Origin: a virus
IMG/VR virus record: IMGVR_UViG_3300017971_000276
Location: 1 to 64,000 of that record
Length of the DNA: 64,000 nucleotides
Strand: one strand, 5' to 3'
Made by a program: the position numbers and the translations under genes. Below are positions 232 to 28,744 of the stretch, one piece after another. Numbering within the stretch: position 1 is the stretch's first letter; the number at the start of each line of letters is the position of its first letter. Under the pieces are notes generated by a model. That model did not search any database. It was not told where the DNA came from and saw nothing but the letters and a program-made list of their open reading frames with translations.

Positions 232-642
232 ATGAGAAAATCTTATCTAATCAGAGACTTACCATTATTATTCGACACATTTTTTCTTAAATGGCCTGAA
301 GCGGCGAAACCACCGATGGATAATTTCCCTATCCTTGACAGCGATGCTTCAAATGGCGAACAATTAAAAGGATGGGAGATTCAATTAGCTCTTGCTGGCT
401 TTACAGAAAAGGATGTAAGGGTTTGGTATGAAGGACAGACTTTACATATTGGAGGAGATAATAGTTCTAACGAAAATATTGGTAGTAAATTCTCTTGTTC
501 TTTTCATCATACCTTAGCTATTTCTAAAGATTTAGATCTAAAGGAGTCTGAAGTTTCTTTAAAAGAAGGCATCCTTTCTATTAAGATCCCGATAAATAGT
601 TCAATAAGAAAAGAGAATCATTTATTTGGTTCTTGTAAATAG
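232..642 (+). CDS. Hsp20-type small heat-shock protein
   Basis: A 136-residue protein with an alpha-crystallin domain at about residues 48-122. It starts at the strand around GWEIQLALAGF, continues through the EKDV..WYEGQTLHIGG strand pair, and ends at GILSIKIP, the family's G-[VI]-L strand. Such proteins are ATP-independent holdases that bind unfolding proteins. The start at 232 is chosen over the in-frame ATG at 136 because AGGAGG (219-224) sits 7 bases before it and the family core begins downstream. The tail is short. With the GroES-like gene at 1892 it makes a small chaperone set at the head of the virion gene block, so a role in folding or assembling virion proteins is a reasonable inference. 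Confidence 0.85.
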   Translation: MRKSYLIRDLPLLFDTFFLKWPEAAKPPMDNFPILDSDASNGEQLKGWEIQLALAGFTEKDVRVWYEGQTLHIGGDNSSNENIGSKFSCSFHHTLAISKDLDLKESEVSLKEGILSIKIPINSSIRKENHLFGSCK

Positions 643-743: not shown

Positions 744-1073
744 TTGACTGATACGGATGATAAGATTGCTGTTGCCATTAAGAGATCTCAACCTGATTGG
801 GCGAAGTGGATTGGCTTACTTTTGACAGTACTCTCTCTTACTGTAGCTGCTGTTGTGTGGGCGAGCACAGAACATTCTGATATTCGATCCTGGACAGCAG
901 ATCAAGACTATGTTACAAAACAAGAGTTAGAAAAGTCTTTTGAGAGACAATACGTACCAAAAGAAGATTTTTCTAGAGTAGAACAGAGTATTATTGATCA
1001 AAAAGAGGATATAAAAGAAATCAAAGATAAGGTTGACAAAATCTTTGAAGTTATCCACAGAAGAAACAGGTGA
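744..1073 (+). CDS. Membrane-anchored coiled-coil protein
   Basis: 109 residues beginning with TTG, supported by GGAGG at 731-735. A basic N-terminal stretch is followed by one hydrophobic segment at about residues 22-41 (W-I-G-L-L-L-T-V-L-S-L...), with no signal peptidase site visible. The rest is a charged helix rich in E/K heptads, ending in KIFEVIHRRNR. The layout suggests a single-pass membrane protein with a coiled-coil tail. Phage proteins of this shape include holin accessory and spanin-like factors, but no family could be assigned. It is followed after 3 bases by the next gene and is probably co-transcribed from the promoter at 681. Confidence 0.65.
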   Translation: MTDTDDKIAVAIKRSQPDWAKWIGLLLTVLSLTVAAVVWASTEHSDIRSWTADQDYVTKQELEKSFERQYVPKEDFSRVEQSIIDQKEDIKEIKDKVDKIFEVIHRRNR

Positions 1074-1076
1074 TCT

Positions 1077-1361
1077 ATGAATGATCCTCGTAACGATACC
1101 CTACTAAAGTTAGCTTCCCTTAGAGACTCCCTAATACAGTTTGCCAAGCCCGAAGTCCTTAAAAAAATTCTAGACCTTTGTGAAGCTCTTGGCACCGATA
1201 GAAACTCATTCGTTAAACAGTTTAAGTTCTGGGCAGAGAAGAATGGTGAAGATTGTCGCTACGCTGCGATGGCCAAACAATTCTTTTTACAGGATCAAGC
1301 AGAAAGTGTTGCCAAACAGATAAATTGGCTCTATCATAACTGGAGCAAATATTATGAATAA
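1077..1361 (+). CDS. Small helical protein of unknown function
   Basis: 94 residues, predicted mostly helical, with two cysteines and a tryptophan/tyrosine-rich end (INWLYHNWSKYYE). No motif of a known family was recognised. The start ATG lies 3 bases after the previous stop and AGGTGAT (1067-1073) can serve as ribosome binding site. It sits between the membrane protein and the tail-tube-like gene, in an operon of small genes that includes the co-chaperonin. Whether it is structural, regulatory or an assembly factor cannot be told. Confidence 0.6.
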   Translation: MNDPRNDTLLKLASLRDSLIQFAKPEVLKKILDLCEALGTDRNSFVKQFKFWAEKNGEDCRYAAMAKQFFLQDQAESVAKQINWLYHNWSKYYE

Positions 1362-1371
1362 GGAGAACAAT

Positions 1372-1842
1372 ATGGAACTTAGAAACAAACTTTGTCGTCT
1401 TTTAGAAATCGCGCAAGAAAAACTATCTCCGCCGAAACAGGATCTCAGTTTTGAAAGGCTGATCTATACAATGGGCTCTGCCGATCCTCGTCCCTTCTCA
1501 AAGCTTACAAAAGGTTATAATTCTTTCTCAGGTTGTGACATCAAAATTATCATAGATGGTAAAACATCTGCTGCAACACAAAGCCTTTGTTGCGACGAAT
1601 ACATCGATGAAGAAGGCAAGAGACAAGTATCAGGTTCTGCTTCTTTTATTGTTTTTGATAAACCTTTTGATTATCTTGGCAAAACAGTAAGACTTATCGC
1701 CAATGGCGCAGACGAGTATGGGAATTTCGCTACATTCTTTGATGAGGAAGTTACATTCATTTCTAAAAAATATGAGTTATCTATTGAGAATGTTGTGGTT
1801 GAAGAACACTATACTTTCAAAATGAAAACCAAAGATGAATAA
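1372..1842 (+). CDS. Rearranged relative of the tail tube protein
   Basis: 156 residues. The start at 1372 has AAGGAG about 8 bases upstream; an in-frame ATG at 1354 overlaps the previous gene and lacks a site. The protein shares exact blocks with the tail tube protein at 26163: YTMGSADPR (residues 32-40), GYNSFSG-x-DIK (48-58), a GS-x2-FI-x-FD strand, and a C-terminal part ending SIEN-VV-EEHYTF against SIDD-IV-SEHSYTY. The first two blocks occur in the opposite order from the tube protein. It is clearly homologous to the phage's own tube but remodelled and much shorter. A tail-assembly or baseplate-associated role is inferred only from that relation; it lies far from the tail genes, beside chaperones. 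Confidence 0.75.
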   Translation: MELRNKLCRLLEIAQEKLSPPKQDLSFERLIYTMGSADPRPFSKLTKGYNSFSGCDIKIIIDGKTSAATQSLCCDEYIDEEGKRQVSGSASFIVFDKPFDYLGKTVRLIANGADEYGNFATFFDEEVTFISKKYELSIENVVVEEHYTFKMKTKDE

Positions 1843-1891
1843 GAGAGTAAACCTCGTCAAAAAGACAGTAATTGCTTATAAGGAGAACAAC

Positions 1892-2161
1892 ATGTTAAAA
1901 CCGACCACTGATTGGATCCTAACCAAGCCTGTAGCACAAAAAGAGAAAGTAACCGACTCTGGTATTGTCCTTGTTACTAAAGAAGAGGATTCTACTAAAC
2001 TTGTTGAGATTGTTTCTTTTGGCCCCGGCGCAAACAAAGACTCCTCCTTGAAGGCAGGAGATATCGTAATGGTTCCAACTCAAACAGGCTATAAAGTAGA
2101 ATTCGATGGTGAAGCTTTCGAGATGGCCAAAGAACAAAACTTTCTAGGAGTTATTGAATAA
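1892..2161 (+). CDS. GroES-like co-chaperonin (Cpn10 fold)
   Basis: 89 residues with the Cpn10 layout: an N-terminal strand (PTTDWILTKPV), a mobile-loop region with SGIVLV, the VEIVSFGPGA strand and the LKAGDIVMVP strand, ending in FLGVIE. Phage proteins of this class, such as T4 gp31, replace host GroES as the lid of GroEL so that the capsid protein can fold. No groEL is seen in the window, so it would work with the host chaperonin. The start at 1892 has AAGGAG at 1879-1884; the upstream in-frame ATG at 1835 overlaps the previous gene. The stop overlaps the next start (TAATG). Confidence 0.8.
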   Translation: MLKPTTDWILTKPVAQKEKVTDSGIVLVTKEEDSTKLVEIVSFGPGANKDSSLKAGDIVMVPTQTGYKVEFDGEAFEMAKEQNFLGVIE

Positions 2162-2550
2162 TGAATAGAAAAAGAATAGATCCCATGAAGTATCCTCTAA
2201 AAGAAGGAGAGTCATGGTGGATAGTACATCCTAATCAAAAGGGTGTAGAGTTCAAAGTTCCTTCAGGAGGAGTAACAGTCTGTACTTCAGACTTCCTAGA
2301 CTTCAAACAGAATACTGTTTATACAATCCTGGGTAATGATCCTCATAATGGTTGGATTACACTCCAGTCTTCTATTGAAGTTGTTGAGATGCCCTACTAT
2401 CTATTTGCAAGATACTTTGATGCAGAAGCCTTTGTTAGAGGTATTCTTAATGATCCTACAGAGCTTGAGGGAGCAGAACCGTTTAACTATAGACCGACCC
2501 TCCCAAAAAAGCCGAGCCAACAAATCGAGCTATTTGAGGATGTAAAATAA
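2161..2550 (+). CDS. Hypothetical beta-rich protein
   Basis: 129 residues with alternating hydrophobic strands (SWWIVHP, GVEFKVP, GGVTVCT, NTVYTILG, GWITLQS) and an acidic end (IELFEDVK). No family was recognised. It starts in the TAATG overlap with the co-chaperonin gene and ends in a TAATG overlap with the ATPase gene, so it is translationally coupled to both. The small beta-barrel look would fit a minor virion or adaptor protein, but that is only inference. Confidence 0.6.
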   Translation: MNRKRIDPMKYPLKEGESWWIVHPNQKGVEFKVPSGGVTVCTSDFLDFKQNTVYTILGNDPHNGWITLQSSIEVVEMPYYLFARYFDAEAFVRGILNDPTELEGAEPFNYRPTLPKKPSQQIELFEDVK

Positions 2551-3104
2551 TGCTAGATATTATGAGATTTTTAAATCCTATTCAATTAAAATTTGTGACT
2601 TCTGAAGATACTTGTGTATCTCTTCTTGGGAAGCGTAGATCAGGAAAAACATATACAGCTTTATATACGGTACTTTATCAGATGCTTACTAAAGAAAATA
2701 TTTCTGTAGTTTATGCTGGGCCATACAAGACGCATGTCGATGTCTTCTTCTCTTCTCTCAAGTCTATATTATCTGAATTAGAAGTAGAAGTTGTCAAAGA
2801 TATTAAAGCTCCGTATTATGAGTTGCGTCTTAGTAATGGAAGTCGTATTCGTGGGTTCTCAACTGCGAGTGGAGTTGCTGCTAAAGGTCAAGATGCTGAT
2901 TTGATTCTGCTTGAAGAAGCACAAACGATAGATAAGTTATCTTTTATGGGAATCTTTCTTCCTATGTTGCATTCTAATCCAAAGATTAAGATTAGAACTA
3001 TTGGTACTTTTGATGAATCTACAATTGCAGACAATGCTCTGTTTTCTTCGTTATTTATTTACAATAACAAACAAATTGTTCTTCCTTTGGAAGGTGTGAG
3101 ATAA
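2550..3104 (+). CDS. Terminase-like ATPase lacking the nuclease domain
   Basis: 184 residues containing a complete terminase-type ATPase lobe: Walker A GKRRSGKT (27-34), Walker B DLILLEEA (117-124), and a coupling-like segment TIGTFDEST. It aligns with residues about 118-255 of the full terminase at 8081; shared blocks include APYYE, NGSR-x-RGF and GQDAD. There is no RNase H-like nuclease domain. Key ATPase residues are intact, so it looks like a maintained paralogue rather than decay. It could assist packaging, regulate the motor, or have another ATPase role in assembly. It is coupled to its upstream neighbour by TAATG and is followed after 1 base by the Zn-binding gene. Confidence 0.75.
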   Translation: MLDIMRFLNPIQLKFVTSEDTCVSLLGKRRSGKTYTALYTVLYQMLTKENISVVYAGPYKTHVDVFFSSLKSILSELEVEVVKDIKAPYYELRLSNGSRIRGFSTASGVAAKGQDADLILLEEAQTIDKLSFMGIFLPMLHSNPKIKIRTIGTFDESTIADNALFSSLFIYNNKQIVLPLEGVR

Positions 3105-3105
3105 C

Positions 3106-3903
3106 ATGGGTGGATCTGGTTCAGGAAAGCCTAAAGGCGAATTACTTAGATTAGATGGCCATGAGCTTATTGATGGCAAGATTCAGAAGTCTAAATTCTT
3201 TGATTTTTTAGGGATGGATTTATCTGACTATAGTAATGTTACTATGACTCCAGAACAAGCTCTTAAATTTAAGAATACTGTTGTCAGGATGAAGTATGGA
3301 GTTGCTGCTGCGATCCCAATGATTTGTGGCGGACCAAAGTGTCCGAATAAACTTTGTGCATTTCATGATGGAGGTGGTTATCCTTTAGGAAAACAATGTC
3401 TCTATGAGGTTCGTATGATTCAAGCTCTGACACGAAGTTATATGGAAGACTTGGCAGTTGATCCAGATAGTCCTTCTGAAATGACTCTTATTAATAAATT
3501 AGTCGAATGTGATTTGATTGATTATCGCGCCAACCTTGGCCTATCAGGTGGCGTAGATGAAGAAGCAGCAACTCTTCTTTCTACGTCAGTTGTGGATAAT
3601 GGCAAAACGATGTCTGAGTCTATAGCAGTTCATCCTCTTCTAGATGCTAAAGATCGAGCTAATAGAACTCGTATGCAAATACAAGATGCTTTTGCTGCTA
3701 CACGTAGAGAGAAATATAAAAAAGCTGCAGCTCTTAAAAAGTCAGAAGATACAGATGCATCTACCTTCCTTGCCGAAATCAAGTCTGTATTTGAGGAAAC
3801 TCCTCAGCAAGCAGTCTCATCTCTTGATAAAATTAAAGAAGACGCTAAGAAAGTGTCTGAAGATCTTTCAGTCGTAGATGTAGATTGGAGTGCTGATGAA
3901 TAG
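3106..3903 (+). CDS. Zn-binding packaging-associated protein, candidate terminase small subunit
   Basis: 265 residues. The N-terminus is short and Gly/Ser/Lys-rich (GGSGSGKPKG). A likely zinc site comprises C74, C79, C84, H87 and C98 in the stretch from MICGG to LGKQC. A helical region follows, and an acidic tail ends VDVDWSADE. Phage proteins with a similar Cys cluster and PxGxxC end occur near terminase genes. The location between a terminase-like ATPase and the terminase large subunit favours a DNA-recognition role, but no helix-turn-helix was identified, so the small-subunit call is tentative. Confidence 0.5.
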   Translation: MGGSGSGKPKGELLRLDGHELIDGKIQKSKFFDFLGMDLSDYSNVTMTPEQALKFKNTVVRMKYGVAAAIPMICGGPKCPNKLCAFHDGGGYPLGKQCLYEVRMIQALTRSYMEDLAVDPDSPSEMTLINKLVECDLIDYRANLGLSGGVDEEAATLLSTSVVDNGKTMSESIAVHPLLDAKDRANRTRMQIQDAFAATRREKYKKAAALKKSEDTDASTFLAEIKSVFEETPQQAVSSLDKIKEDAKKVSEDLSVVDVDWSADE

Positions 3904-6734
3904 TGCTAAATCTTTTTGGAATATCGTCTCTTGCTGGCTCTGGTTATCGAGGGCCAAATCCATGGCTTAATCCTACTTATAACCAAGCAGAAGATATTGA
4001 ACGCTATAAAATGATGCGTGCTTCTAAGCTTGGGTCTTCAGAAGCAGAACTATATAAATACTACACTCAGAAAGAAGAAGCTCCAGAGTGGCTTTCCGCA
4101 ACAGCTAGTGCAGGTAGTGCTCTTCACTTACTAGAAGAAGCAAAAGCAGTTAAAGAAGGCAGAGTGAATGCAGCAGAAGAATTTCTCTATGATCCGTCAA
4201 CAATGACAACTGGTCATATTGATATTACTTATCGTTCTGGTGCACCAGCTGATATTAAAACTGTTTCTGCTAAAAGATTTGCTCAAGTCCGGCAACAAGG
4301 TGCATTTAAGAAACATGTTCATCAGTTAAATTGGTATATGAACCAAAAGAACTCTGAAACTGGTTATCTTGAATATATTAATCGTGATGATACTTCTCAG
4401 AGACTTACTCTTGAAATTGGCTATGATCCTGCAATGTATGAGAGAGACATGGAAAAAGTCTCTAGAGTTCGTCGTCGAGTTGAAAGAGAAATTGAAGCTG
4501 GAATATTAAATGAGGATATGCTTCCTAAAACTGCATCTTTAGAAAGATTACAGGAAGCAGCAATTGAGGAAGCTGGTCAGGCTCTTGAAAATACTAAAAG
4601 GATTCCTTATTTAGAGAAGGTTTATCAAGAAGAGATGGACTATCTCAATTCGGTTTCTGCTAAACGAAATCTTCGTAGATCACAGAGAAGATATCAAGGA
4701 TCAAAAGACCAAGTAGCTCAAGGCGGTCAAAGGTGGAGTGGCAGAGATGACAACTATAATACAATTGAAGGTCTTCGTCACGGTGGTGCAGCAGAACACG
4801 TAAGAAAGTCATTAACTGCTTTTGGTTCTGGTTATCAGCGGAATGTCTCTTTGATTCATGTTGCAAAAGGTACTGATACTAGCGAAATTGAAAGAGAAGG
4901 TCTCCTTCCAAGTAAAACAGAGAAAGGTCTTGCTGGAGATGCAGTATATGCAACAACCAAAGAATGGTTCTCTCAAGCTACAGAAGAACAAAAATCTGGA
5001 TTAGGAATTCCTTATGGTTCGGCTTTTGAGTTTAAGGTAGATCCAAAAACTGTATCTGCTGGATGGTCAGAAGGTGGATTCTTTGGGTTGTTCCCGGAAT
5101 ACAAACAAGAAGCTCTTTCTTCTTTCTTGCAAAGAGAAGACAAGCCAGATATTTATGAAGTTACTGTCCCTTATAAAATTAATCCTAGTCAATTAAAGAA
5201 AATCTCTCCAAGAGAATCAAATGAGATTAGTACTGATGAATCTTCTTTCTCTGGTCTTGATGCCATTAAATATGGCGCAAGTGCAACAATGTTATATGCT
5301 GGGCTGACAGCAAAGAATATCCCTTTTAGGGACAGAATGGAAAAGATAGTTGGTAAGAAAGCAGCTCCGTTTGTAACAAAAGCGCCTGCTGCAATTTGGT
5401 TAAGTAATGAAATGCTTTCTCTTTCTACTGATCCTTCGTTAGAAAATGCTGCTCGTTTTGGATTGGGAGTAGCAGGGTGGGAATTAGGAATGAGACAAGG
5501 TACGAAATTAGGCGAGCGATTAGCAAAAGGGAAACATAAGGGTATACCAGGTGTTATTGGTCATATAATGGCTCCTATTGCGTCTAGTGCTTTGTCAAGT
5601 TTATTTAAGCCTTCTAATAGGCCAATTGAAGAGATTGAAGGTTTGCATCCTGGCTCAGAAGGCCTTGGAACTCAATCAGTTCGAGAAATTAGTGCTTTTG
5701 GTTCTGGGTTCGATGCTCTTAAGTCATATCTCCAAAATGAGACGGTAACAAAAGGCAAAAGAGCTTTCTTCTCTGGTCCACAGAAAGAATATGCTGGTTC
5801 TGAGTCTATTATCTCTAGTGCTTTTAGTGGAAGAGATGATGCATATAATACTATTGAAGGTTTACATCCAGGGTCAAATGGGATGGGAGCTTCTTCTATT
5901 AGAAGTCTTACTGATTTTGGTTCTGGTTGGGATCCTCTTAAAGCATTAGCCAGGAACATATTTAAAGATGTAGATAAAGACCAGGCTTTTAAGAAATTAG
6001 TTGGATCTTCAGAATTTCAATCTGCATTAGAACAAGCGACTCAGAAAGGTATTATTGGAGAAGGCATGTTTGGGTCTGTAAGGAAGATGGAGGGAGTTTT
6101 TAGAGGTAAGAAATTTACCTTCGCTAGAAAGACTGGAGAGATTGGGGAACAAGAAGTAGCTGCTATGCGAGCTGCAGAATCTACAGTTGCACCTTCCGTT
6201 TATTCTGCAAAGCCTGGTCAAATCGATATGGAGTTATTTTCTGGCAAGACATTAGGTGAATTAGCACCTAAAGATATTTCTGCACTTGAAGGAAAAGTTA
6301 CTTCTGCTTTTTCTAAAATTCATAGAGCGGGATACGAACATGCAGATCCTCATCTTGGAAATGTGTTTATTACTGATAAAGATCAAATTGGTATTATTGA
6401 CTTTGGTAATGCAAGAAATCTAGCAGAAGTAGGAGGGACTAATGCTGCTAGTGGAGATATTGATATTGTCTCTAGGCTTATTAAAGCTGCTTCAGAAGAG
6501 AAGTCTCAGTTGGCTGCTATTGATCCATTTGCTGCAGCTGATCCGTTTGCTGCTCAACAAGTAGGTTTGCAGGATGTAATGGCTCAACTTCCTGATCCAG
6601 CAATAGACAAAGCAAGAGCTAAAAGAATGAAGAAATTCCGACAAGTGAGTACAGATGCTGTTGGTATTGGCCATAGAGCAGCTTATAAAGCAGGTAGAAA
6701 ACATTCTGGGTTTAGATCAACAGAATCAATGTAG
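3903..6734 (+). CDS. Multidomain PD-(D/E)XK nuclease / ART-like / kinase-like protein
   Basis: 943 residues with a GTG start inside the previous stop (TAGTG). Residues about 35-215 look like a PD-(D/E)XK nuclease of the RecB/Cas4 type: GHID with D107, D117-I-K119-T and Q141-x3-Y145. Residues about 315-440 (HVAKGTD, I-x3-GLLP, GDAVYAT) resemble an ADP-ribosyltransferase fold; this is weak. Residues about 715-870 look like a kinase: glycine loop GEGMFGSV (719-726), K743, catalytic loop H813-A-D815-P-H-L-G-N820, and D833-F-G. The H-x-D-x-H-x2-N form is like ABC1/RIO/Bud32 kinases. Three copies of an IEGL...FGSG motif link the parts. It probably is a virion cargo or effector protein; targets are unknown. 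Confidence 0.6.
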   Translation: MLNLFGISSLAGSGYRGPNPWLNPTYNQAEDIERYKMMRASKLGSSEAELYKYYTQKEEAPEWLSATASAGSALHLLEEAKAVKEGRVNAAEEFLYDPSTMTTGHIDITYRSGAPADIKTVSAKRFAQVRQQGAFKKHVHQLNWYMNQKNSETGYLEYINRDDTSQRLTLEIGYDPAMYERDMEKVSRVRRRVEREIEAGILNEDMLPKTASLERLQEAAIEEAGQALENTKRIPYLEKVYQEEMDYLNSVSAKRNLRRSQRRYQGSKDQVAQGGQRWSGRDDNYNTIEGLRHGGAAEHVRKSLTAFGSGYQRNVSLIHVAKGTDTSEIEREGLLPSKTEKGLAGDAVYATTKEWFSQATEEQKSGLGIPYGSAFEFKVDPKTVSAGWSEGGFFGLFPEYKQEALSSFLQREDKPDIYEVTVPYKINPSQLKKISPRESNEISTDESSFSGLDAIKYGASATMLYAGLTAKNIPFRDRMEKIVGKKAAPFVTKAPAAIWLSNEMLSLSTDPSLENAARFGLGVAGWELGMRQGTKLGERLAKGKHKGIPGVIGHIMAPIASSALSSLFKPSNRPIEEIEGLHPGSEGLGTQSVREISAFGSGFDALKSYLQNETVTKGKRAFFSGPQKEYAGSESIISSAFSGRDDAYNTIEGLHPGSNGMGASSIRSLTDFGSGWDPLKALARNIFKDVDKDQAFKKLVGSSEFQSALEQATQKGIIGEGMFGSVRKMEGVFRGKKFTFARKTGEIGEQEVAAMRAAESTVAPSVYSAKPGQIDMELFSGKTLGELAPKDISALEGKVTSAFSKIHRAGYEHADPHLGNVFITDKDQIGIIDFGNARNLAEVGGTNAASGDIDIVSRLIKAASEEKSQLAAIDPFAAADPFAAQQVGLQDVMAQLPDPAIDKARAKRMKKFRQVSTDAVGIGHRAAYKAGRKHSGFRSTESM
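4734..4839 (+). repeat. IEGL-FGSG linker motif, copy 1
   Basis: Coding repeat with the pattern SGRDD-x-YNTIEGL-x-HGG...R-x-SLTAFGSGY. It lies between the nuclease-like domain and the ART-like region of the 943-residue protein. Confidence 0.7.
5622..5735 (+). repeat. IEGL-FGSG linker motif, copy 2
   Basis: Coding repeat with EIEGLHPGS...SVREISAFGSGFDALK. It lacks the SGRDD start found in copies 1 and 3 and lies after a hydrophobic Gly/Ala region. Confidence 0.7.
5820..5946 (+). repeat. IEGL-FGSG linker motif, copy 3
   Basis: Coding repeat with SGRDDAYNTIEGLHPGS...SIRSLTDFGSGWDPLK. It stands directly before the kinase-like domain. Copies 2 and 3 share the IEGLHPGS block exactly. Confidence 0.7.
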
Positions 6735-8080: not shown

Positions 8081-10009
8081 ATGAAAGATGAATTAGCAGA
8101 TCTTAGAGAAATGGACTTGCCATTTGATGTTGACGAAGTAATTCCTCAATGTCATGAATGTGTTCGTAGTCAAATCAAAAAATACAATAAACATGTTCTT
8201 GATGGCAAGGTTGTAGGGCGTAAATTCTTAGTTCCATGTACAGGGATTAAGAAAGAGCTTATTTCTCCGATGGAGAAGGCAACTAAAACAGATGATCAGT
8301 TAGGTATTCTTCGTGCAGTTAGAGACAAAGTAGAATTTGCTAAAATGTTCGCTCGTTTACCAGGGAATCTTCCTTGGGTTGCTAGATGGTATCAAGAGCA
8401 AGTGCTTAGATGTACTTCACGTCGTAAAGTTTTAAGAATTGGGAGACGAACTGGCAAAACAGATAGTGTATGTATGGAAATTCTGTTTAAGTTGTTTACA
8501 AGTTCAGATCGTAAAATTTTTGTAACTGGCCCACAGAAAGTGCATGTCGAAGAGATCTTTACTCGTGTTCGTGGTTTTATTGCTGCGAATCCGGTTCTTA
8601 AAGATTCTGTTGTTAGAGATGTAGCTGCTCCTTATTATGAAATCAAAGTTAGGAATGGTTCTCGTGTTCGTGGCTTTGCTGGAGGGGCTAAAGGCAAGAA
8701 GGAAGGCCTTGCAGGTCGTGGGCAAGATGCTGACGATATTTATTGCGAGGAAATGGATTATATTGATGAGACTGCTCTCCGTGGCGGTATTTTCCCTATT
8801 CTCCACACCTCTCCTAATACTTCTCTTTGTGGTTTCTCTACTCCCACAGGCTTTAAGACTCCTTATTATGCTTTGTGTGAAGAAAGTCCTCATTATAAAG
8901 AATTCCACTTCACATATAAAGTTCTACCTTGGTGGAAACAAGTTGAAGGAGAAAAGAGTTCTTTTACAGAAGAAGAATGGACACATGAGTATTTAGCAGA
9001 ATGGGGAACTTCTGAGTCTGGTGTTTATAAGCCAGCATATATAGATCGAGCTTTAGCTGATTACACATATGAAGGGATTAATAGAAATCCTTCGTGGAAA
9101 TATACAATTGGGACTGACTGGAACGAAAAACATGGTACTGAGATTGTGGTTCTAGGCTTTAATCCTTTCACAAATAGATTCCAAGTTGTAGATGCTCTTC
9201 ATGTAGAAAGCTCTGAGTTTACGCAGCTGACTGGTGTGTCTAAACTGCTTGAGATGAATCGCAAGTGGAGACCACATTTTATATATATTGATGCTGGGAA
9301 TGGCAGTACTAACTATGAGCTTTTAAGGAAAACTGCATATGAAAATATGCGTAGGGATGGAGACAGAGACACTGCTAACTTATTGAATATGCTGAAGAAA
9401 TATGACGCAGGAGCTTCTATTGAGATTCGGGATCCTGTTACTTCTCAAAAGAAGAAAAGCCCTGCTAAACCATTTATGGTAAATGCTTCTGTTCGTTTAT
9501 TTGAGCAAAATAAAATTAGGCTATCGGCTCATGATCATATTCTTGAAAAACAACTAAGAAGTTACATTATTGAAAGGATTACGCCCACAAAGACTCCTGT
9601 CTATGGGCTTGAAGATCCTAAAGCAAAAGATCATAAATTAGATGCTTTAAATTTAGCAATAGTTGCATTTCAGTTAGAATTTGATAGTCTACATACTAGG
9701 AATGTTAATACTCAAGTTGCATCAGTGCCAGACCCAAGGACTTTAAAGAATCAACAATCTCAAGATGAGAAAGAAAGATTTGCGACTCCACAAGAAAGAA
9801 GACTAGATGGTGGCTTTGAAAAAACACTTGTTGAAGAACAGCTATTTGCATCGACACCTGCTAGAATAGATAATGGTCTTGATGGAATTCGTACTAATAG
9901 ACCGGGATGGTCTACAGATGAAGAGGATTTACATATCCAAAGGTTTTTACAACGTAGGCGTGGTCGACAATCTATTAGAAGAAATCGGCCAACAAGATCA
10001 AATTTCTAG
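8081..10009 (+). CDS. terL: Terminase large subunit
   Basis: 642 residues forming the DNA-packaging motor and nuclease. Walker A is GRRTGKTDS (121-129), Walker B is DDIYCEEMD (218-226), and the coupling motif is near GFSTPTG (251-257). The C-terminal RNase H-like nuclease shows the expected acidic residues: D346 in IGTDWN, D404 in YIDAGNGS, and a KDHKLDALNLA segment near residues 560-570. An N-terminal extension carries a C-x2-C pair (CHEC, 24-27). AGGTGAT at 8071-8077 precedes the ATG. The full architecture marks it as the working terminase, unlike the short paralogue at 2550. Confidence 0.95.
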   Translation: MKDELADLREMDLPFDVDEVIPQCHECVRSQIKKYNKHVLDGKVVGRKFLVPCTGIKKELISPMEKATKTDDQLGILRAVRDKVEFAKMFARLPGNLPWVARWYQEQVLRCTSRRKVLRIGRRTGKTDSVCMEILFKLFTSSDRKIFVTGPQKVHVEEIFTRVRGFIAANPVLKDSVVRDVAAPYYEIKVRNGSRVRGFAGGAKGKKEGLAGRGQDADDIYCEEMDYIDETALRGGIFPILHTSPNTSLCGFSTPTGFKTPYYALCEESPHYKEFHFTYKVLPWWKQVEGEKSSFTEEEWTHEYLAEWGTSESGVYKPAYIDRALADYTYEGINRNPSWKYTIGTDWNEKHGTEIVVLGFNPFTNRFQVVDALHVESSEFTQLTGVSKLLEMNRKWRPHFIYIDAGNGSTNYELLRKTAYENMRRDGDRDTANLLNMLKKYDAGASIEIRDPVTSQKKKSPAKPFMVNASVRLFEQNKIRLSAHDHILEKQLRSYIIERITPTKTPVYGLEDPKAKDHKLDALNLAIVAFQLEFDSLHTRNVNTQVASVPDPRTLKNQQSQDEKERFATPQERRLDGGFEKTLVEEQLFASTPARIDNGLDGIRTNRPGWSTDEEDLHIQRFLQRRRGRQSIRRNRPTRSNF

Positions 10010-24254: not shown

Positions 24255-26141
24255 ATGGCATATCCAAATCTTCCAGGAGTAAAACTTTCTAAGAATGATG
24301 GGAATTTGGCTCCTACAGCAGCAGCGAGAGCGCCTCGTGTATTAATTATTGGTACTGCTGGCCAAGGTCAGGGCGATGAACTATTCTTAGTTCCTACAAC
24401 TTCTCAGGCCAAAAGTGAGTTTGGCAATGAAGGAACTTTAATTCGCGGCATGTGGGAAGCTCTTAAAACAGGAGCTGAGGAAGTCGCTCTATATCGTATT
24501 GGTTCTACTTCTGCAGTCCTAGACCATGTTGGTGATTCTGCTGGTTCAGCAGGATATAGGATTGAAACAGTAACTCAAGATGCATCTGCAGGAACAGATT
24601 ATGCTTTGTATTTTGACGATACCTCAGATCGATTGGTTGTTCGGCGCAATACTGACAATCTAGTTGTTTGGGATAACAACCCGTCTAACCCTATTGATCT
24701 ATTTGAAGTAGTAGTGAGTGGGTATAGAGCTGCAGCAGGTGGGCCAGATATTGGTTCTGCTTCCGGTTTTATTAACCTTGCTAGTGTTGATCCGTCAACA
24801 TATGCAGGCACAGAATTTACTGCAGGCACAGATGGCTTAAGTCTTTCTAGAATGGAAATGTATGAAGAGCTATATGTTGCTTACAAGAATCTAATGTCTG
24901 AAGCATTTGATGTTATTGTTCCAATGGATGTCTATTTAGATGACTATAATATAGTTAATCAAGGACACTTTAAAGGAGCAGTTTCTCCTGTAATCCCAGT
25001 CGGTCAGCAATATCCGACAGCTGGAGCATTCTCTCCTACTGTTGATGTTGACTCTCTTGGTAAAGTTTTTGTTGAAGAGTATGAAGGCGAATTTTATTTC
25101 TGGTGGGATACTGATGGAGATGGCGTTGCAGAGGTATTTCCTACTCCAGCAATTGGGTCTTCTAGCTCAACAACAAAGATTGATGGAACGACTTTAACAA
25201 CTGCTGATTTCCATGAAGTTAACTTCGGTTATCAGCTATCTCGTTTTCTGTATGACTATAGTGAAGAGATTGTTGACGCAACTGGTGTTATTGGTGTCCT
25301 TCCTCCCGACAGTAATTCTCTGCGAGATAGAGCTCGTTGGTTAGGACAAGATCCAACATGGACATTAAACACAAACACAGGAGAATATTACATTGCTGCT
25401 CCATCTGCAAATGGGACTGGCTTACTTGGTAATAAGTTTATGGTTGGCCGTTTTGATCATAGAAGCGGAGCGTTTGGTGGCGGAATGATCCTAACTGATA
25501 CTCAGTTTATGGATGGAACAGAACAAGTTGATGACAATAGTATTGCTGTTGATCTTGGTAAATACATTTCTGTTGTTTCTGAGACTGCATTCTTAAGAAA
25601 CAATTGGTATCCTGCTGGCTATCGTGCATCTATTGCATCTTCATATGCAGGATTTTATATTGGTCTTCCTCCATCAAGTGCACCAACGAATAAAAACATT
25701 TCTGGTTCTTCTATCATTTATAAAATGGCAATGGGAGCCTATGATAGTCTAACTGGTGCAGGCTATGTCTCATTACGGAATCGTCCACTTGGTGGAACCG
25801 TAGTAACAGATGCGCCAACAGCAACTCTGCCAAATTCTGACTGGAGACGTTTGTCAACAGTGCGGATTGTTAAAGAAGTTGTAGACAGAATTCGTTCTGG
25901 TCTTGATCCGTTTATTGGAGAAGGAACTGGTGCTTCTGTACGCGCAAGTATGGAAAGTGTTGTCGGAGAGATTCTCCTGCAAGCAAAACGAGATGGCTAT
26001 CTGCAAGATTATAAGGAGTTTAGTATCATTCAGACTCCTCAACAAGAAGTTCTTGGCGTCGTTGAAGTCAATCTGACATTGATTCCAGCGTTTGAGATTC
26101 GCCAGATTAATCTAACAGTTTCACTAAGCAAGTCTGGCTAA
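24255..26141 (+). CDS. Contractile tail sheath protein
   Basis: 628 residues with the N-terminal pattern of phage sheath proteins (YPNLPGVKLSKNDG, then RVLIIGTAGQG), a variable middle domain, and the conserved C-terminal domain: GYRASIASSYAGFYIGLPPSSAPTNK, YVSLRNRPLGG, STVRIVKEVVDRIR. A final strand, EVNLTLIPAFEIRQINLTVSLS, fits the handshake arm linking subunits. The sheath surrounds the tube and contracts to drive injection. AGGAGG precedes the start. It is followed by three tube-fold genes. Confidence 0.9.
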   Translation: MAYPNLPGVKLSKNDGNLAPTAAARAPRVLIIGTAGQGQGDELFLVPTTSQAKSEFGNEGTLIRGMWEALKTGAEEVALYRIGSTSAVLDHVGDSAGSAGYRIETVTQDASAGTDYALYFDDTSDRLVVRRNTDNLVVWDNNPSNPIDLFEVVVSGYRAAAGGPDIGSASGFINLASVDPSTYAGTEFTAGTDGLSLSRMEMYEELYVAYKNLMSEAFDVIVPMDVYLDDYNIVNQGHFKGAVSPVIPVGQQYPTAGAFSPTVDVDSLGKVFVEEYEGEFYFWWDTDGDGVAEVFPTPAIGSSSSTTKIDGTTLTTADFHEVNFGYQLSRFLYDYSEEIVDATGVIGVLPPDSNSLRDRARWLGQDPTWTLNTNTGEYYIAAPSANGTGLLGNKFMVGRFDHRSGAFGGGMILTDTQFMDGTEQVDDNSIAVDLGKYISVVSETAFLRNNWYPAGYRASIASSYAGFYIGLPPSSAPTNKNISGSSIIYKMAMGAYDSLTGAGYVSLRNRPLGGTVVTDAPTATLPNSDWRRLSTVRIVKEVVDRIRSGLDPFIGEGTGASVRASMESVVGEILLQAKRDGYLQDYKEFSIIQTPQQEVLGVVEVNLTLIPAFEIRQINLTVSLSKSG

Positions 26142-26162: not shown

Positions 26163-26837
26163 ATGGCACTACAATCGGCATTCACAAGAGGCTATAATAG
26201 CTTCTCAGGCGTGGACATTAAGGCTGTTATCGGTTCTAATGTAATCGGTAGCATCCAAGGTATTTCATACCAAGTGTCCCGTGAAAAAGCTCCTATTTAT
26301 ACAATGGGTAGCGCAGATCCACGAGCATTTGCTAGAGGCAAACGTGCAATTGCTGGTTCTTTGGTCTTCATTCAGTTTGATCATGAACCACTAATGTACG
26401 AACTAGCAAACCCTGATCCTAAAGAGGAGAGCAGAAGACTTTATTTCTTGTCTGATATTGATGACCTTCGTCCTGAATATCGAGCAGGAGAAAGAGTTGA
26501 AGTTGCGACAACAGGAGTAAGCCCAGTATCAGCAGAAAGCACAAATGTACCTGGTGCTAATATTGGCCAACAAGAGAGTAATATTACAACTGCAGGGTCT
26601 GATCAACAAAAGGCATTACCTTGGTACGCAGATCAGATTCCGCCATTTGATGTCGTTTTAGGCGCAGCAAATGAGTATGGCGCATTGTCTATTATGAAGA
26701 TTCTTGGTTGTGAGCTTATGAACTCTGGATATGGTGTCTCTATTGATGATATCGTTTCCGAACATAGCTATACATATATTGCTCATGGTCTATTGCCATG
26801 GGTAAGCCAAGGTGTTCATGAAGACATGTTAGGCTAA
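26163..26837 (+). CDS. Tail tube protein
   Basis: 224 residues. Directly after the sheath, as expected. It carries the tube-fold blocks GYNSFSGVDIK (10-20), IQGISYQVSREKAP (31-44), YTMGSADPR (46-54), IAGSLVFIQFD, ANEYGALSIMKILGCEL and SIDDIVSEHSYTY. These recur in the next two genes and, in a different order, in the gene at 1372. A segment around residues 100-150 (VEVATTGVSPVSAESTN) is a loop insertion. As the simplest copy, next to the sheath, it is taken as the main tube. Confidence 0.8.
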   Translation: MALQSAFTRGYNSFSGVDIKAVIGSNVIGSIQGISYQVSREKAPIYTMGSADPRAFARGKRAIAGSLVFIQFDHEPLMYELANPDPKEESRRLYFLSDIDDLRPEYRAGERVEVATTGVSPVSAESTNVPGANIGQQESNITTAGSDQQKALPWYADQIPPFDVVLGAANEYGALSIMKILGCELMNSGYGVSIDDIVSEHSYTYIAHGLLPWVSQGVHEDMLG

Positions 26838-26856
26838 TTGTCAGTTTGTCTATTTG

Positions 26857-26884
26857 CAGAGCTAGGGAATTGACTCTAGCTCTG
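26857..26884 (+). terminator. Stem-loop between tube and second tube-like gene
   Basis: CAGAGCTAG (26857-26865) and CTAGCTCTG (26876-26884) form a perfect 9-bp stem with a 10-base loop. The following TTCTCCCCTCTC is pyrimidine-rich but not a T-run, so it may be an attenuator or RNA-stability element instead of a full terminator. It would let the tube be made in excess over downstream tube-like proteins. Confidence 0.55.
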
Positions 26885-26909
26885 TTCTCCCCTCTCTATA
26901 AGGAATAAA

Positions 26910-27830
26910 ATGATCAGTTATCGCGCACCATTAGATAAAGGTCTTGTCGCATACGATGAAGGTGGAAGGGTCATAGGTCCTGTTAGCAATGCTACAGCTT
27001 CAGAATACTTAGGTTGGGGAAGCTATTCTGGTGCTGATATTAAAGTAATTGTGCATTATCCTAGAGATTTTAGCGCAATAAAACTTCTTAACGAAGACAG
27101 AAGAAAACATGAAATGGATTTATTCCAACTTGATAATCAAATAGCAGTACTTCAAAATACTGTAAATGCTTATCAAGGATCTCTTTCTGACAATCAAGTT
27201 ATTCAGTTAAATGATAGAAGAGCGGCAGTAACAAGCCAACTTGAACTAATTGACAAAGAGATTGTTAAGGCTAAAAATATTCCTACCTCAAAAGTTATTG
27301 GTGAGCTTCAAACAATGTCTTATAGTGTGTATCGTGAGAAGTCACCTGTTAGAACCCTTGGTTCTGTATATCCAAGAGCTTATGTTCGCGGCCCAAGAAC
27401 TATTGGTGGCTCAATGATTTTTACTGTGTTTAATCAACATGTCCTTCATGAGATTCTAGAAATGAATCTAAAGTTCTATAACACAGGAACTAGTGATCAT
27501 GACAAATATACTTATTCTACAAATCTTCCAGATCAGCTTCCTCCACTAGATATGAGTCTAGTGTTTGCAAATGAGTATGGTTCTATTTCACATATGGGCT
27601 TGTATGGTGTAGAATTTATGCAAGAGGGAACAACATTCTCTATCGAAGATATTTTTACTGAGAATGTAGTGCAGTATGTAGCAAGGGATATAGATCCAAT
27701 GAGACTAGTAAGCAAACGAGAAGTTGATGGTCAGGGAGTAAAAGATGAATGGAGTTCTACTGCCTCCTCTTTGTTAAAGAATAAACAGTTTAAAAACAAT
27801 CATTTAGTCAGAAGGAATCAATTTATTTAA
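26910..27830 (+). CDS. Tube-fold protein with coiled-coil insertion
   Basis: 306 residues. Tube-fold blocks are present in order: GSYSGADIKVIV, ELQTMSYSVYREKSPV, RTLGSVYPRAYVRG, IGGSMIFTVFN, ANEYGSISHMGLYGVEF and FSIEDIFTENVVQYVA. Between the first two blocks is an insertion of about 80 residues (about 55-130) with a heptad-like coiled coil (EDRRKHEMDLFQLDNQIAVL). AAGGAA precedes the start. It may form a special ring, such as a tube initiator, baseplate collar or end ring, rather than the bulk tube. It ends in TAATG. Confidence 0.7.
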   Translation: MISYRAPLDKGLVAYDEGGRVIGPVSNATASEYLGWGSYSGADIKVIVHYPRDFSAIKLLNEDRRKHEMDLFQLDNQIAVLQNTVNAYQGSLSDNQVIQLNDRRAAVTSQLELIDKEIVKAKNIPTSKVIGELQTMSYSVYREKSPVRTLGSVYPRAYVRGPRTIGGSMIFTVFNQHVLHEILEMNLKFYNTGTSDHDKYTYSTNLPDQLPPLDMSLVFANEYGSISHMGLYGVEFMQEGTTFSIEDIFTENVVQYVARDIDPMRLVSKREVDGQGVKDEWSSTASSLLKNKQFKNNHLVRRNQFI

Positions 27831-28744
27831 TGGCACTTAGAGATCAAAATGGCAATTATGTTACTCCTCATGGCATTGGCTCTTTTGCTTATGAATATGA
27901 CTGGTTTAGTGGCTCTCAGATTGGAGTCATGATTGGCGATGTCTTGATTGATAGTGGTGTCGCTATTAGTTTCAATGTAGAGCAGACAAAGACTCCTGTT
28001 TATGGATATGCCAACCAATATTATACTTTTGTCTCTGATGGCCATGTGCTTGTTCAAGGTGTTTTAACTATCGCCTTTAAAGAGGCAGGATACCTTTTAT
28101 GGCCAATGCAAAGATACCAAGAGAAAATTGGAAATATCAATTCTGTTAGCGATGAAGAGAATTGGCACCAAAGACATGGCGCTAATGTTTGGACGAGTCC
28201 TAGATATTCAGTTGACTCAAATGGTAATATAATCAATTCTTATAACCCAAGCGAAGTAGGAACAAGTTTAACAGCAGCCGCTAAAGCAGCCAGACGTAAA
28301 AAGGTAATGGAAGCTAATGTAGAACAAATGTTTGGCTGGCAAGAATCTTCTGTTCAGAATAGACAAAATAAAAACTTTAATCGATTCTGGCAAGAACTTG
28401 GTGCTCTTCCTGATGATGAATTTGAAGACTGGGCAGAAGTATTTGAAGATGCCATTTGGTATGGTTCTGATGCTGCTAACCCAACTGTTAGAGATAAACT
28501 CTTTTCAAAAAACTTACCTTATGATAAAGAAATAACTGATGAGAATGTTTTGCGCCATAGAAGAGCAGACCAATATCCACAAATTGATATGTGGATTGTT
28601 TATGGCGATATGTCTCGTCAACCAGCGAATCATACTGTCAAGAAAATTCTTGATCTGTCATTTACTGGCCAGTCTCAAACTATTGAGATTTCTGGTCAGC
28701 CTATATATGAGCAATATAATTTTATTGCTAGAAACCTAGTTTAA
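27830..28744 (+). CDS. Third tandem tube-fold protein
   Basis: 304 residues. More distant tube-fold blocks: DWFSGSQIGVMIGD, GVAISFNVEQTKTPVYGY, FVSDGHVLVQGVLTIAF, QIDMWIVYGDMS and VKKILDLSFTGQSQTIEISG. A central helical insertion at about residues 100-240 separates the first and second halves. Start lies in TAATG with the previous gene, so the two are made together. Its position before the tail chaperones suggests a ring at one end of the tube. Which end cannot be told from sequence. Confidence 0.65.
   Translation: MALRDQNGNYVTPHGIGSFAYEYDWFSGSQIGVMIGDVLIDSGVAISFNVEQTKTPVYGYANQYYTFVSDGHVLVQGVLTIAFKEAGYLLWPMQRYQEKIGNINSVSDEENWHQRHGANVWTSPRYSVDSNGNIINSYNPSEVGTSLTAAAKAARRKKVMEANVEQMFGWQESSVQNRQNKNFNRFWQELGALPDDEFEDWAEVFEDAIWYGSDAANPTVRDKLFSKNLPYDKEITDENVLRHRRADQYPQIDMWIVYGDMSRQPANHTVKKILDLSFTGQSQTIEISGQPIYEQYNFIARNLV

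Follow-up and report, generated by a model that had tools for sequence, protein, structure and literature searches.

A predicted tail-tube paralog with its β2-β3 loop peptide on the N-terminal arm, encoded beside a GroES-like gene in a viral contig

The β2-β3 loop of tail tubes and the locus studied

All described major tail proteins share a loop between strands β2 and β3, which in the characterised tubes forms the main contact between rings, usually with the N-terminal loop as its partner (PMC8718954). Loss of this loop blocks tube formation or stacking in T5 and SPP1, and in YSD1 it leaves single hexameric rings (PMC8718954). The loop governs the stacking of subunits and, separately, the activation of the tube sensor DSR2 by the tube, as taken up below.

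We analysed a window of 64,000 nt (positions 1 to 64,000 of the IMG/VR record IMGVR_UViG_3300017971_000276), in which a gene for a 156-aa protein of predicted tube fold, here called the permuted gene, lies in an operon with Hsp20-like and GroES-like genes (Table 1). It is not encoded beside the tail sheath: the separation of 24 kb from the tube gene noted in the initial annotation stands. The known fold occurs here in a genuine but uncommon variant, for which regulation of tube subunits and an immune decoy are the candidate functions. We found no description of a permuted tube or tube decoy of this kind in the literature.

In the family of the main tube, the β2-β3 region (REKAPIYTMGSADPR..RGKR.IAGS) is the best-conserved part across 37-41 tubes. 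The main tube gene is the first of three tube-fold genes in a row after the sheath (26163-28744), the second and third being divergent tube paralogs, and the annotation of KLEB27-3 likewise has three tube-fold genes in series. The family is labelled 'major head protein' in PHROG 9206, OR602862.1 and NC_041884.1, although the window member is found directly 3' of the sheath gene and the family has matches to tail-tube folds. A tube-like loop motif, PIYLMGSAPP, also occurs in a 112-aa ORF (L026:12590-12928) with a tube HMM E-value of 4.5e-4.

Table 1. Features of the permuted gene, its operon and the tail module in the 64,000-nt window
Feature	Positions	Strand	Support or remark
Hsp20-like small heat-shock protein	232..642	+	Pfam HSP20 2.9e-8; start picked by ribosome-binding site
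One-transmembrane coiled-coil protein, operon member	744..1073	+
Conserved 94-aa operon protein, directly upstream of permuted gene	1077..1361	+
ATAAGGAGAACAAYATG left copy, ribosome-binding site and start of permuted gene	1358..1374	+	exact
Permuted tube-fold gene, 156 aa	1372..1842	+	HMM of the tube family from viral contigs, E 5e-11; hhalign, tube family vs 156-aa protein, 98.1%, E 7e-14
Predicted N-terminal amphipathic helix, residues 2-18, missing from tube	1375..1425	+	AlphaFold2 pLDDT about 80-85; hydrophobic moment 0.45
Relocated loop block IYTMGSADPR, residues 31-40	1462..1491	+	exact match to tube residues 45-54; disordered in model
GYNSFSG block, residues 48-54, where the tube core begins	1513..1533	+	exact match to tube residues 10-16 (26190-26210)
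β2-turn-β3 hairpin, residues 68-94, tube loop deleted here	1573..1653	+	model and alignments
ATAAGGAGAACAAYATG right copy, ribosome-binding site and start of GroES-like gene	1878..1894	+	exact
GroES-like co-chaperonin	1892..2161	+	Pfam Cpn10 1.5e-11; PHROG 8e-13
Conserved 129-aa operon protein, 3' of GroES-like gene	2161..2550	+
Truncated terminase-ATPase paralog, without nuclease part	2550..3104	+	PHROG terminase 3.7e-9
Full-length large terminase (comparison)	8081..10009	+	PHROG 1.2e-31
Tail sheath, marks tail module	24255..26141	+	PHROG 7.5e-67
Main tail tube, parental family	26163..26837	+	PHROG 2.5e-43; 36% identity to annotated KLEB27-3 tail tube
IYTMGSADPR at canonical site, tube β2-β3 loop	26295..26324	+	exact block match

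Shared blocks and predicted structure

The start of the permuted gene is preferably placed at 1372, as AAGGAG lies immediately 5' of this codon; the upstream ATG at 1354, chosen by the ORF tool, gives 162 aa and an ORF that runs into the preceding gene. The initial annotation had pointed to two blocks, YTMGSADPR and GYNSFSG, in reversed order relative to the main tube. Both are present in that order, and the first is longer than reported: the exact common block comprises 10 residues (IYTMGSADPR), a match far beyond chance, the longest exact match in 2000 shuffles of the tube being at most 7 residues. In the alignments, the blocks that follow (GKR..SGS..FI.FD, A.EYG and S.E/D..V.E..YTF) come in the same sequence as in the tube, as had been claimed. 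The DNA identity to the tube is 25 of 36 bases in the 12-codon stretch of each of the two transposed blocks, and six of the nine degenerate codons of IYTMGSADPR differ, with a TCT/AGC switch at the serine. Since the codons have diverged and the peptide blocks are kept, the gene is neither a fresh copy of the tube nor an obvious assembly slip, and the exact retention of the peptide despite the changed codons argues for selection acting on it.

Profile comparisons with the tube family (Table 1) match the 156-aa protein significantly; the tube profile has no sequence match among solved structures. We obtained a single AlphaFold2 monomer model from a 40-sequence alignment (mean pLDDT 78), in which the N-terminal helix is followed by a disordered segment, residues 23-45, with pLDDT under 50 and the relocated block within it, and then by a well-modelled core. 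Residues 45-156 resemble tail tubes, Hcp and related tube-fold proteins, with Z up to 10.2 over 106 residues at 3.8 Å, where the Z scores are a re-ranking of Foldseek hits whose own E-values are weak. The protein thus has a tube-type β-sandwich homologous to known tubes. The β2-β3 loop was not found in its canonical place, being replaced in the model by a 5-residue turn that joins strands E68-78 and E84-94 and appearing as a deletion in the alignments; the strand assignment of the moved block comes from alignment to this hairpin of the model, and in that region the monomer model of the tube itself is poor. A helix flanking the sandwich, as in tail tubes, is not seen after strand 3 of the single model, and the N-terminal helix is its only one. 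Sequence, homology and model together make it very probable that this is a tube fold from which the loop has been removed and in which an amphipathic helix is followed by a flexible N-terminal arm bearing the loop peptide.

The segment swap proposed in the initial annotation survives as the relocation of one segment, but not as an exchange of two blocks: as the β2-β3 loop is gone from its own site and the arm at the N-terminus now carries the loop peptide, the event is rather a loop transposition. Tandem duplication at the F(A/T)RG stretch common to the tube is a possible route by which it arose.

We found no direct protein relative of the permuted gene among phage records and viral contigs, and no true second case of the permuted DNA order in IMG/VR or the GTDB representatives. 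The sole match to this order in a viral contig is a 122-aa ORF immediately 5' of a larger capsid-like ORF, which shares no further tube motif and is attributed to chance; five matches in genome contigs are all chance ones once translated. An assembly error or a unique, unexpressed pseudogene had been named as an outcome that would undo the original proposal. The exact order was indeed seen in no other phage of those scanned, but the gene does not look like an obvious artefact or pseudogene: its reading frame is unbroken, a ribosome-binding site of its own precedes it and the operon around it is tight.

The operon and its distribution among relatives

The operon runs from the Hsp20-like gene through those for the one-transmembrane coiled-coil protein, the 94-aa protein, the permuted protein, the GroES-like protein and the 129-aa protein, and continues with those for the truncated terminase ATPase, for a protein of 265 aa and for a large Cas4-like/kinase-like protein. 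The claim that the permuted gene lies between chaperone genes is correct for the GroES-like gene directly 3' of it but not for the Hsp20-like gene, as the two genes at 744-1073 and 1077-1361 intervene. The motif ATAAGGAGAACAAYATG has just two exact matches in the whole window, which bracket the permuted gene, and is the longest common upstream word among 946 gene-start pairs; promoter and terminator scans gave background levels. The large protein encoded at 3903-6734, which varies among relatives, has an ABC1/kinase-like part besides one that resembles the Cas4 nuclease, and its FSG-DD-N-IEGL motifs are repeated.

The truncated terminase keeps the region of Walker A and B and shares 37% identity over 124 aa with the full-length TerL of the phage (E 1e-28). 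A matching truncated terminase is carried by the relative G003; close to the operon in G009, G051 and G054, a similar RR.GKT motif was recognised by eye in ORFs of 163-192 aa. The reading frames of the large terminases in G001, G004 and G051-G054 (L177-L188) span about 1045-1123 aa and are interrupted in frame at one of two sites, near query residue 125 or 221-226, by an insertion that may be an intein.

We found the operon in about ten distinct viral contigs, some of which may be incomplete although the operon itself is covered. A tube-like gene is present in it only in the window and in the near-identical pair G004/G012, where a 177-aa loop-less relative (L117:2551-3084) is 30% identical to the 156-aa protein (blastp E 2e-11). 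The G004/G012 protein resembles ours in being encoded in the same operon and in having an N-terminal extension and a deleted loop, but it is encoded on the opposite side of the GroES gene and its extension has no detectable loop block; the loop sequence is kept in the main tube of that phage and not in its short protein. An LGSV in its N-terminal region is suggestive of a permutation by eye, but shuffles give p about 0.25 and we do not claim one. Whereas the short proteins of G004 and the window are about 30% identical, their main tubes are 77-78% identical. A third loop-less short member occurs in G023 (L028:13163-13576), within the tail gene cluster, and the three short loop-less proteins group together on a tree with support of 0.96, albeit with long branches. 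Relocation of the loop is therefore documented once and its loss three times.

The closest relative, G001, whose tube is 92% identical, has no short tube relative anywhere in its 140-kb contig, and there the 94-aa gene leads straight into GroES; hence the permuted gene is accessory. In G003, this slot is occupied by other ORFs without detectable relation to tubes; for one of them, of 133 aa, hhalign gives a probability of 1%. The bracketing by ATAAGGAGAACAAYATG, the absence from G001 and the content of the G003 slot suggest a gain-and-loss cassette and not a core tail gene.

Candidate roles and known counterparts

The reading we prefer, with a probability of about 0.36, is that the protein is an accessory tail-tube paralog that would limit tube polymerisation by holding subunits or capping the ends of rings. 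In the proposed mechanism, the core would remain able to pack against tube subunits, and the arm would present the conserved loop peptide at the site where the loop of the following ring usually docks; without a loop at the canonical position, stacking could not be passed on. The protein would then hold free tube subunits or transiently occupy a ring end, and premature or off-pathway tube polymerisation would be limited. Binding without stacking is what the loop biology of characterised tubes, taken with the deletion of the loop here, would predict. A location among GroES- and Hsp20-like genes suits a helper better than a component of the virion, but the neighbourhood is weak evidence, as the chaperone operon exists in relatives without the permuted gene. 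Against holding or capping stand the short G004/G012 relative, in which the loop sequence is not detected (p about 0.25), and the near-identical tube of G001, which manages without the gene. The roles suggested initially, namely to cap, initiate or hold tube subunits, are candidates compatible with the findings, but the absence of the gene in G001 and its position outside the tail module speak against a cap or initiator that is essential. Since the gene is an optional extra, a part in building the tail is improbable; its product probably acts as a regulator of tube subunits or deceives a bacterial sensor of them.

The latter option was omitted from the initial annotation and fits nearly as well as holding or capping: a loop-less tube mimic might occupy a tube sensor (DSR2 or similar) without switching it on and so shield the real tube, which we regard as a plausible and serious rival, if a somewhat less probable one. 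DSR2 senses the monomeric tube and needs the β2-β3 loop for activation, yet a tube that carries a linker instead of this loop still associates stably with DSR2, in a similar ratio (PMC10981675); the 156-aa protein lacks exactly that loop in place, according to alignments and model. The accessory distribution, fast divergence and variable cassette slot also fit an arms-race gene. However, the exact loop peptide on the arm is needless for a pure decoy and might even activate the sensor. Moreover, point mutations in the loop disrupt an interaction surface in a second DSR2 structure paper (PMC11087589), so that a tube without the loop may bind less strongly than was claimed. The large terminase and the portal are sensed by Avs proteins (PMC11348598), and the truncated terminase, the third gene downstream of the permuted one, could serve likewise against such sensors; that a natural loop-deleted mimic binds a tube sensor without activation and the truncated terminase acts as a second decoy is nevertheless unlikely, and the G003 operon, with a truncated terminase and no tube-like gene, indicates that the two need not have a common purpose. 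If true, trimmed copies of recognised virion proteins would constitute a general strategy for blunting pattern recognition.

A minor part of the tail or a relic is less likely than either of these. Known tubes begin and end with separate hexameric rings, e.g. the gp48/gp54 hub and gp3 terminator of T4 (PMC8718954), and a minor ring of this kind (initiator, cap or terminator) at one tube end could be loop-less because it must not propagate; the short member in the tail cluster of G023, which groups with the permuted gene, is in line with this. Such a ring is distinctly unlikely here, given that the gene is missing in G001 and most operon-bearing relatives, lies outside the tail module and shares far less identity with its G004 counterpart than the main tubes share with each other. 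A decaying duplicate without selected function would account for the confinement of the tube-like gene to two phage types, its divergence from the tube and the lack of any clearly permuted relative, but we consider it improbable in view of the intact reading frame and dedicated ribosome-binding site within a tight operon, the confidently modelled core, the 10-residue block unchanged amid synonymous changes and the loop-less relative retained in the G004/G012 operon. That the order was produced by chimeric assembly of unrelated reads is highly improbable: though it comes from a single metagenomic contig and was found nowhere else in the contigs scanned, the blocks do not reproduce the tube at the nucleotide level, no frame break is seen, the flanking operon is syntenic with relatives and a related gene occurs in the G004/G012 operon.

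A natural protein with this loop off its site but on an arm would separate stacking from DSR2 activation. Binding to tube subunits would make it a model for how tube polymerisation is controlled in nature; binding to tube sensors would show that phages counter pattern-recognition immunity with trimmed versions of the proteins that form their virions.

The closest known counterparts are the tubes of the PHROG 9206 type (Moorella phage MTATph1, Bacillus phage KLEB27-3 and Acinetobacter phage ME3), with which the 156-aa protein shares a homologous β-sandwich and the blocks GYNSFSG-DIK, GKR..(S/A)GS..F..FD, A.EYG and S..D/N..V.E..YT. It differs from them in lacking the canonical loop, with the loop peptide on a helix-bearing N-terminal arm, in having no post-strand-3 helix in the model and in being encoded 24 kb from the sheath-tube module. 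The SPR tube with its loop1 replaced (PMC10981675) lacks the same loop, binds DSR2 and activates it poorly; it is an engineered mutant of another tube family. In YSD1, the engineered loop deletion likewise yields a tube fold without the loop in place and forms hexameric rings, whereas the protein described here is natural and keeps the loop peptide elsewhere.
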